Under the pieces are notes generated by a model. The model ran no database searches and was not told where the DNA came from. It saw only the letters and a program-made list of their open reading frames with translations. The position numbers and the translations under genes were made by a program. Below are positions 12,372 to 35,558 of a stretch of DNA of 64,000 bases, piece after piece. Each line of letters opens with the position of its first letter. Within the stretch, counting starts at the first letter, position 1. The stretch is from Lysobacter luteus (lineage in GTDB: Bacteria; Pseudomonadota; Gammaproteobacteria; Xanthomonadales; Xanthomonadaceae), in assembly GCF_907164845.1 (NCBI RefSeq), contig NZ_OU015430.1, positions 62,001-126,000 of the forward strand, given 5' to 3'.

Positions 12372-12419
12372 CCAGGTCGTCCTGGTCGTGTGGGCCCGGG
12401 AAGGGGGAGGTCGTCCTCC
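12372..12419 (-). promoter_or_regulatory. guanidine-II (mini-ykkC) riboswitch
   Basis: On the minus strand two small hairpins each show an ACGA tetraloop: GGAGG-ACGA-CCTCC (12419-12406) and CCAGG-ACGA-CCTGG (12385-12372), separated by 20 nt. Tandem stems with ACGR loops define the guanidine-II class. The second hairpin ends 8 nt before the AAGGAGG ribosome binding site of sugE, suiting translational control in which bound guanidinium frees the site. Confidence 0.88.
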
Positions 12420-12534
12420 ACGCGGCGGTGCGCCGCGGCGGCAGGATAGCGCCGGCCGGCGGCGCCGGCACGCATGGCCGGCGATGGTCTAAAGTCGCGA
12501 CGATCGCAGGGGCGCCGCCGCGCAGGAACCACCG

Positions 12535-32284: not shown

Positions 32285-32524
32285 CAGCGCCAGCCTAACG
32301 CAGGGTGGTGCGCCAGGCAGCGGGCGCCAGGTACCGCGCGCCTCGCGCCACCCCGGACGTCGGGCGCCCTCGTCAACCAAGCCATGGCCAACGCGTTTAC
32401 GGTGGGGCGGTCGCGACGCTCGATGACGCTGAACCGGTCAGGAAGCGCGCCGCGTATTACTGCAAATTAAGCGCAAGTTCAATGCCCCGGCCCGACGATG
32501 GCCGCAATCGACAGGGGACAGACG

Positions 32525-33082
32525 ATGATCCGCAAACTCCTTCTCCCAGCCGTGGCAATCGCCCTGCTGGGCGGTTGCATGACCGGCGGTTACAGCTACC
32601 GCCAGGACCGGGGCGACTACTACTACGGCAATCCGGGCACCGACTACCGCTATTACGACCCGTACGGGCGCTACAGCGACCGCTACTACGGCAGCGGTTA
32701 CTACGGCAGTGGCTATTACTCGCGCTATTACGGCCACCCGGGCTACTACCGCTATCCGTACGGCTACCACCGCTACCCGAACGGCTACTACCGCCCACCG
32801 GTGGTGGTGCGTCCGCGTCCAGACGACGGCCACGATGGCGGCGGACACCACCGCGACGACGACCGCACGGCACCGTCGCGCAACCTAGACCGCCTCCAGC
32901 GCGAGCGGATCAACCGCACGCCCACGCCGATCGTGCAGCAGCAGCGCCGTCCGCAGCCGGCCGCCGTCGCACGTCCGGCCCCGACGCCGGCCGCGCGCGA
33001 GCGAGGCGGCTCCCGGATGGAGCAGGTGATGCGTCGGGCGCGCAGCGGCGCGGTCGAGCGGTCGCGCGAAGTCGAACCCTGA
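32525..33082 (+). CDS. tyrosine/glycine-rich lipoprotein
   Basis: 185 residues. A lipoprotein signal ends at lipobox LLGGC (Cys18). Residues 20-95 are a low-complexity stretch dominated by Tyr, Gly and Arg (repeats such as YYGSGYYGSGYYSRYYG), then a His/Asp-rich part and an Arg/Pro-rich tail. No catalytic motif. ACAGGGGACAG precedes ATG 32525. Such Tyr-rich envelope proteins are often structural, but the role is unknown. The 240-bp region before it holds no other gene. Confidence 0.75.
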   Translation: MIRKLLLPAVAIALLGGCMTGGYSYRQDRGDYYYGNPGTDYRYYDPYGRYSDRYYGSGYYGSGYYSRYYGHPGYYRYPYGYHRYPNGYYRPPVVVRPRPDDGHDGGGHHRDDDRTAPSRNLDRLQRERINRTPTPIVQQQRRPQPAAVARPAPTPAARERGGSRMEQVMRRARSGAVERSREVEP

Positions 33083-33117
33083 GGCGCGCGTCCGCGGATG
33101 ACGGCGATCCGCGGGTA

Positions 33118-33147
33118 TTGACAGATTGCGTCGTAATGCGACGTAAT
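33118..33147 (+). promoter_or_regulatory. promoter of a candidate small RNA
   Basis: A perfect TTGACA (33118-33123), 18 nt, then CGTAAT (33142-33147, 4/6). No ORF with a ribosome binding site follows; instead a structured region and a terminator-like hairpin come about 90 nt later. Confidence 0.55.
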
Positions 33148-33153
33148 CGGGTT

Positions 33154-33257
33154 GACGCTTCAATGTCGACGTCCGGCACGGAATCACGGATCCCCCCTGT
33201 TCCGTCCCTGTCGGACGTCGGCGCCTACACCGGAAGCCCCGCCACGCGGGGCTTTCG
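33154..33257 (+). ncRNA. candidate small RNA with C-rich loop (sX13-like architecture)
   Basis: The predicted transcript runs from about 33154 to the hairpin at 33234-33254, roughly 100 nt. CGACGTCCG (33167-33175) pairs perfectly with CGGACGTCG (33212-33220). Inside, ACGGAA (33178-33183) pairs with TTCCGT (33200-33205), leaving a 16-nt loop with six consecutive C (33192-33197). A promoter, a long stem with a C-rich loop and a final hairpin make a complete small-RNA gene. The size and C-rich loop recall the Xanthomonas sX13 RNA, but identity is not shown. Confidence 0.6.
33234..33254 (+). terminator. terminator hairpin of the candidate small RNA
   Basis: AAGCCCCGC, a 3-nt loop CAC and GCGGGGCTT form a 9-bp stem, followed by TCGCG. 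The T tract is short (TTT including the stem end), so efficiency is uncertain. Confidence 0.6.
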
Positions 33258-33408
33258 CGTATCCGGGGCTCGCGCGCCCAGCGCTGCACACGCGCCTGCA
33301 TGGATCGATTTGGCCCTCGAATCGCGCGCCCGCGCAGCGCAAGTCCCGCGCATCGCGTGACCGCGGTCGTATTTGTGGCGGCCTCAACGGCCAGCGCTGG
33401 CCAGAAAT

Positions 33409-33444
33409 AAAAAAGGGGCCGAATGTCCCCCGACATTCGGCCCC
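33409..33444 (-). terminator. strong rho-independent terminator without an upstream gene
   Basis: GGGGCCGAATGTC, loop GGGG and its exact complement give a 13-bp stem on the minus strand, followed by six T residues (A-run at 33409-33414). Confidence 0.85.
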
Positions 33445-33565
33445 TGCGCTTCCCCTGCGGGCACTTGGTCAGCCCCTGTTCCAATTCCGACCGGCGCCAG
33501 GCGCCTGCCCCGCTGGGTGCAGGAATGGGAACGCACGAAGCGTGCCAAGGTTGACGCGGGGTTAA
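33409..33565 (-). ncRNA. candidate rod-like small RNA ending in a strong terminator
   Basis: A perfect terminator on the minus strand at 33409-33444 has no minus-strand gene in front of it; mnmG starts at 33669 in the other direction. The DNA between can fold into a long rod: CCCCGCG (33561-33555) pairs with CGCAGGGG (33459-33452, one bulge), GGCAC (33546-33542) with GTGCC (33464-33460), and GTTCCCATTCC (33532-33522) with GGAATTGGAAC (33488-33478, one mismatch). The 5' end is a guess, because no good promoter was found. A family name cannot be given. Confidence 0.5.
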
Positions 33566-33617
33566 CACCGATTGTGAATCCCGTGGTCAGCGACGCAGCC
33601 CGACCGGGCAGCGGCCG

Positions 33618-33623
33618 TAGAAT
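33618..33623 (+). promoter_or_regulatory. possible -10 box of mnmG
   Basis: TAGAAT matches the -10 consensus at 5 of 6 positions, 45 nt before the mnmG ATG. A -35 at the right distance is not obvious. Confidence 0.3.
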
Positions 33624-33668
33624 TCGCAACCACGCCCCCGCCGCCCACGGCCAGGGTCCGGACATACG

Positions 33669-35558
<1,890 letters not shown>

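Follow-up and report, generated by a model that had tools for sequence, protein, structure and literature searches.

The closest described counterparts of the RNA reported here are small RNAs with C-rich loops and RNAs that pair with them. sX13 of Xanthomonas is highly structured and acts through C-rich loops on G-rich motifs near translation starts (PMC3771888); it has three such loops and lies at polA. In Campylobacter jejuni, CJnc190 and CJnc180 combine a C-rich loop with a complementary RNA from the same locus, the two overlapping as antisense and being perfectly complementary. RNA sponges, as described in the available excerpts for RoxS of Bacillus and for Caulobacter, withdraw a small RNA from its targets. 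Finally, asX1 (RF02235) is expressed in X. campestris pv. raphani (PMC4652430) and in Xylella cells (PMC12189769), and the passages of those two reports that were available state neither a role nor a partner for it.

We analyzed a 64,000-nucleotide stretch of Lysobacter luteus DNA (the window), in which an intergenic region before mnmG encodes a highly structured RNA with a C-rich loop. It resembles sX13 in overall design, but has one C-rich loop and a terminator-like hairpin. About 200 nt downstream of the hairpin, this intergenic region also encodes asX1, on the opposite strand. asX1 was overlooked in the preliminary description of this locus; it is the proposed partner of the hairpin RNA and is not homologous to it. 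The arrangement recalls CJnc190/CJnc180, but the genes are convergent and match in their loops only, with no overlap between 33165-33256 (plus) and 33409-33519 (minus). It would differ from the RoxS and Caulobacter sponges, as far as these are described in the excerpts, in that the proposed sponge is the neighboring gene in most of a family. In the portions of the literature consulted we recognized no report of the plus-strand RNA, although it may have been reported earlier, for example as sX7. The features of the locus are as follows.

33118..33147, plus strand: promoter-like TTGACA (33118-33123)-N18-CGTAAT (33142-33147), read from the sequence and unproved
33120..33142, plus strand: three phased half-sites, GAC-N7-GTC-N7-GAC, overlapping the -35 element; from a motif count in relatives
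33165..33222, plus strand: conserved hairpin of the C-rich-loop RNA, made up of outer stem, 5' internal loop and apical stem; from fold and covariation
33191..33200, plus strand: apical loop UCCCCCCUGU; from the consensus structure
about 33232..33256, plus strand: terminator-like hairpin followed by UUU; from the fold
33409..33519, minus strand: asX1 sRNA (RF02235), convergent with the C-rich-loop RNA; 92.7 bits, gathering score 70
33425..33434, minus strand: asX1 terminator loop GUCGGGGGAC, the same in all 19 Rfam-placed copies
33473..33482, minus strand: asX1 loop GGAACAGGGG, the exact complement of CCCCUGUUCC at 33194-33203
33669..35558, plus strand: mnmG, the downstream neighbor; Pfam GIDA

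Folding of the RNA from 33150 to 33262 gave -60.3 kcal/mol, compared to a mean of -40.7 kcal/mol for shuffled sequences (z -5.3), and none of 200 shuffles was as low. The preliminary description had proposed nested stems carrying a C6 loop, and both stems are present: a perfect 9-bp stem joins 33167-33175 to 33212-33220, and inside it a perfect 6-bp stem, ACGGAA/TTCCGT (33178-33183 with 33200-33205), encloses a 16-nt loop holding six C at 33192-33197. The 6-bp stem, however, is an alternative fold, favored also by the window's own sequence, and is not the one kept in relatives. The inner stem common to these is YGGA/UCCG (33187-33190 with 33201-33204), which encloses the 10-nt apical loop, so that the conserved fold consists of a long stem interrupted by a 5' internal loop, then YGGA/UCCG, then the apical loop. 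In a consensus of 61 sequences 95.3% of cells are paired, and the covariation that the preliminary description had suggested looking for is evident as compensatory changes in 11 of 18 consensus pairs. Two-sided changes occupy 92 cells, compared to 30.3 (sd 6.6) in shuffled alignments and 16-29 when partners were slid. One consensus pair is U-G in 41 sequences; it would read A-C on the opposite strand, and the RNA is therefore the plus strand. CCCCCUGUU is invariant across 47 aligned hairpin sequences, variant loops among them. A structured small RNA presenting a C-rich loop is strongly supported by these data.

The same region was described as free of open reading frames, and this holds across relatives. 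An ATG does precede the loop by 20-28 nt at 98 of 189 distinct loci (25 nt at 74, 24 at 12, 26 at 9 and 20-21 at 3), but the stops fall at scattered places, and thus no protein is kept at the hairpin locus. A small protein was ruled out on these positions.

Rfam 15 reported no plus-strand family at gathering score in the window. At the locus itself, where an Rfam search had been recommended, asX1 was found on the minus strand, and on the plus strand, at E values up to 10, only PK-BYV and asX2 appeared, both far below gathering score. Among 37 chosen loci compared with Rfam, asX1 and sX9 were the sole families reported. Elsewhere in the window, a Guanidine-II riboswitch aptamer (RF01068) matched at 12372-12422 on the minus strand with 34.0 bits (gathering score 32). 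The preliminary description had offered the RNA as an sX13-class regulator or a new one of similar design; the similarity of design fits, while membership in the class fails. The sX13 model (RF02232) had no match at E values up to 10 within 33083-33668, the RNA differs from sX13 in loop number and in its neighbor (mnmG rather than polA), and the sX13 of this genome itself lies elsewhere (L180, G000:C1:238878-238989, 72.4 bits, with C-rich stretches). The hairpin RNA is not sX13. It is a real, widely conserved, structured RNA, and adds a conserved family that Rfam 15 lacks to the group to which Xanthomonas, Stenotrophomonas and Lysobacter belong.

BLAST searches with 113 nt, of the kind that had been advised, matched 30 of 60 related genomes; 28 have the hairpin with the exact 17-mer loop, and at L029 and L030 the terminator alone matched. 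A 17-mer scan of named genomes returned at least 119 stretches. Among the 80 named matches listed, 70 carry names of the window's group (Luteimonas, Lysobacter, Xanthomonas, Stenotrophomonas, Pseudoxanthomonas, Thermomonas, '[Pseudomonas] hibiscicola' and unnamed Lysobacteraceae or Lysobacterales) and 10 carry others. L036, L047, L051, L052, L059, L095 and L119 were rejected as chance occurrences of the 17-mer, having neither the stem nor either neighbor gene. The exact 17-mer was absent from the viral collection, in which a phage origin was sought. One locus (L079), from a record named Bacillus subtilis SK7B5, is Stenotrophomonas-like and has mnmG; the label or the assembly looks wrong. Since the 17-mer set contains the loop by construction, invariance of the loop has to be judged on sets obtained in other ways.

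We refer to the window's family as f1 and to other families of the order as f2-f5 and f9-f12. Model R1, built from 61 hairpin sequences, found the hairpin in 362 of 395 f1 genomes, with the exact 16-mer in 322. Loops were read in 30 of the 41 genomes with an R1 match but without the exact 16-mer; they include GGAUUCCCCC, GGAUACCCCC, GGACUCCCCC and versions with C5 or C7, and CCCCUGUU was present in every one. Model R2, built from the 47-sequence alignment that includes variant loops, matched in 212 of the 338 genomes examined across the order; the matches fall in families f1, f2, f3, f4, f5, f9, f10, f11 and f12, although the sole f9 match (L207) was discounted as it is without the core. The conservation on which the preliminary description had made its proposal depend is borne out by these counts.

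The distribution of asX1 is narrower. Its Rfam model matched in 94 of the 338 genomes of the order, in f1 only. At gathering score it was found at all 20 loci of a first selection and at 11 of 17 in a second, which had been picked because most of its loci had given no result in a motif search. Within the 395 f1 genomes asX1 was present in 352 (above the cut-off in 312); 350 have both RNAs, 12 the hairpin alone, 2 asX1 alone and 31 neither, an agreement inflated by relatedness and by incomplete genomes. G030, one of the two asX1-only genomes, has a hairpin match with model R2.

We considered whether the hairpin might be part of the leader of mnmG, or of another following gene, acting in cis or released from the leader. 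On neighborhood this has something to recommend it, in that mnmG lies on the same strand behind the hairpin at 145 of 150 f1 loci with room and at 21 of 25 loci in other families (some genomes being present twice in these and the following neighborhood counts), and a clear terminator is missing at 112 of 189 distinct loci. At the other 77, however, the C-rich hairpin is followed by a terminator-like hairpin and then by four or more T within 8 nt. Moreover, asX1 sits between hairpin and mnmG, a plain attenuator needs no invariant loop, and f2 and f4 have a different gene behind the hairpin. The non-f1 loci without mnmG are L196 and L200 (f2) and L204 and L205 (f4); the gene in both f2 loci appears from its translation to be that of ribosomal protein L28, and of the f4 loci, L204 and L206 have an FKBP-like gene behind the hairpin and L205 a different gene. 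Taken together, we consider a leader element unlikely and favor a small RNA that is probably expressed as a separate unit. On the upstream side, a PLP-enzyme gene precedes the hairpin at 116 of 153 f1 loci; the upstream gene of the window (32498-33082, plus strand) encodes a protein rich in tyrosine and glycine that starts like a lipoprotein and has no Pfam match.

The signals of such a unit in the window had been described beforehand. TTGACA-N18-CGTAAT occurs as reported, and the terminator-like hairpin does have a strong stem, but only UUU stands behind it; a consensus scan called neither element. The half-sites GAC-N7-GTC-N7-GAC were found upstream of the hairpin at 128 of 160 distinct f1 loci (0.2 expected in base shuffles) and at 5 of 27 loci in other families (0.1 expected in shuffles). 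They end about 17-47 nt 5' of the stem, as measured at 97 loci with enough flank, and may be an operator.

The asX1 loop is complementary to CCCCUGUUCC, on the 3' half of the C-rich loop. We scored this match by the longest uninterrupted Watson-Crick run that the loop region can form with the opposite strand within the 360 nt that follow, a measure chosen after the result of a duplex-energy comparison was known. Over 159 distinct f1 loci the mean run was 9.32, compared to 5.60 on the same strand and 6.28 in shuffles; the run was 10 at 81 loci, 9 at 67 and 5-8 at 11, such that 9-10 contiguous pairs are kept at 148 of 159. A single-locus p of 0.02 was reached by 90 of the 159 loci, which are related to one another. 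The duplex energies, which allow bulges and are weak evidence as a test of pairing, gave a median z of -1.15 in f1, with 25 of 159 loci below -2 and the minus strand scoring better than the plus strand at 150 of 159. An earlier motif count of 115 of 120 distinct loci was set aside because it covered certain asX1 variants only and included one spurious same-strand match (L064), and with it the asX1 changes leaving G-U pairs that came from the same count.

The copies of asX1 placed by Rfam regardless of the loop have GAACAGGG in 18 of 19 cases and GAGCAGGG in 1 of 19. In the variant genomes L158, L161, L165 and L166 the asX1 terminator stem differs and the G run remains in the loop, and in L171 one base of the match is lost in an asX1-like loop. 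In Lysobacter profundi (L040 370-481 and L021 1701-1812, one genome) asX1 has been inverted onto the strand of the hairpin with its loop kept, and in Pseudoxanthomonas taiwanensis (L062) the mnmG start lies about 60 nt behind the loop, asX1 and its space being gone. The 3' part of the asX1 match sits within the apical stem of the C-rich hairpin, and the unpaired probabilities were 0.16 for CCCCCCUG, 5.5e-5 for CCUGUUCC and 0.057 for GAACAGGG of asX1. Loop-loop contact was absent upon cofolding, though such contacts cannot be represented by that method.

On another reading asX1 would be a decoy that binds RsmA/CsrA through GGA in its loops, and the C-rich RNA would mask those sites. Most asX1 copies do have GGA in their loop region, and all 19 Rfam-placed copies retain GGGGGA in the terminator loop. 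The asX1 loop of Thermomonas and genus g61, however, is CUGAACAGGGG; the GGA beside the match is lost or moved while the complement, GAACAGGGG, is kept. We regard the decoy as very improbable.

Beyond f1, neighbors match in some families and not in others. In f11 it is the 5' half, GAUUCCCCCUG, that is matched by an opposite-strand stretch, CAGGGGGAAUC; the match spans 11-12 nt at four of the five loci (L191, L194, L195 and L208, all unreported by the asX1 model) and 7 nt at the remaining one. Behind the matching stretch, L194 and L195 have a minus-strand hairpin with a T run. The single f5 locus has a contiguous run of 10. By the same test the neighbor run was 6-7 nt, the shuffle level, in f12 (9 loci) and f3 (5 loci), and only 4-5 nt in f2 (3 loci), f4 (3 loci) and f10 (1 locus). 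The loop is unchanged in families whose neighbor is unmatched, and thus its invariance must be due to partners other than asX1 (mRNA, rRNA or protein), to which asX1 would be added as a further layer; asX1 cannot be what keeps the loop invariant. The 5' part of the loop resembles the 3' end of 16S rRNA, which it might mimic, and that part varies between genomes.

These data bear on a reading in which the loops match through a common third partner or an old duplication, without pairing with one another. Invariance of the C-rich loop in families without a matching neighbor is as expected from this, and the two stretches are direct repeats on the plus strand. Yet f1 and f11 match opposite halves of the loop, and a duplication fails to explain why the copies stayed matched across f1 while their stems changed. 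We consider this reading improbable and favor one in which the two loops would pair in the cell.

Beyond the structure, strand, conservation, neighborhood and kept complementarity established here, the best-supported mechanism, to which we give about an even chance, is a C-rich-loop sRNA that acts on G-rich mRNA leaders and is opposed by asX1. The hairpin RNA would act in trans, offering its invariant loop to G-rich sites of mRNA leaders. The convergent asX1, with its matching G-rich loop, would be an antagonist that withdraws the C-rich RNA from its targets through loop-loop pairing, and this pairing might perhaps lead to cleavage as well. The complementarity of the neighboring loops suggests a regulator with its own antagonist. 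It is, however, symmetric, and the roles could be reversed, with asX1 the regulator and the C-rich RNA its sponge. The two conserved G-rich loops of asX1 and its expression, proven according to the excerpts cited above, would suit this, but the C-rich RNA and its loop extend across the order whereas asX1, by the Rfam model, is confined to f1. We therefore think reversed roles improbable, and favor asX1 as the antagonist. A broader and more tentative proposal, which we put forward with the chances somewhat against it, is that the C-rich RNA is an order-wide hub on G-rich leaders, including those of secreted proteases, whose opposite-strand neighbor became a loop-matching antagonist more than once (on the 3' half in f1 and the 5' half in f11). 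If the hub-and-antagonist reading is true, asX1, a known but unexplained RNA, gains a role, and one that is testable: the differing match register in the two families is a natural series for testing pairing by loop exchange. A convergent pair matched in the loops alone would be a compact way of giving an sRNA its own antagonist.

Candidate targets came from a scan of the window's genome for the 16-nt anti-loop with up to 3 mismatches. This returned 24 sites, the hairpin itself among them, compared to 6 for the reversed pattern, and many of the 24 fall within genes. Six (L210, L211, L223, L225, L229 and L230) were judged from open frames and third-position GC to lie upstream of a gene in sense; the Pfam assignments are, respectively, TAP-like hydrolase, Peptidase_M4, none, Peptidase_S8, gyrase B type and EamA. 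The M4 site (L211 1501-1516) starts 72 nt upstream of the ATG of a gene for a secreted M4 protease, which is present in 3 of 10 genus genomes. A 13-nt block, GGAACAGGGGGAA, is present in all 3 leaders (L211 and L233-L235) and makes 11 exact pairs with the window's loop. It is the longest unbroken invariant stretch in a leader alignment of 77% mean column identity, a comparison of three genomes of which two are close, and it may serve another function. The C-rich RNA may have targets of this kind, and the M4 protease leader is the best candidate and the sole one supported by relatives.

In the S8 leader, at L225 1499-1518, a hairpin with a G-rich loop, GAGCAAC-AGGGGG-GTTGCTC, stands right after a promoter-like TTGCAC-N17-TAGGTT, about 300 nt before the S8 protease gene. 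This motif was absent upstream of 14 of 16 homologues (in 9 genus genomes; 16 of 25 loci read). Of the other two, L247 has AGGGGGG and L251 has GAACAGG, in what we read as a different hairpin context; the homologues are 51-57% identical and therefore probably paralogues. The sX13 copy of the same genome (L180) contains CCCCUG, which could pair with CAGGGG of asX1 over 6 bp.
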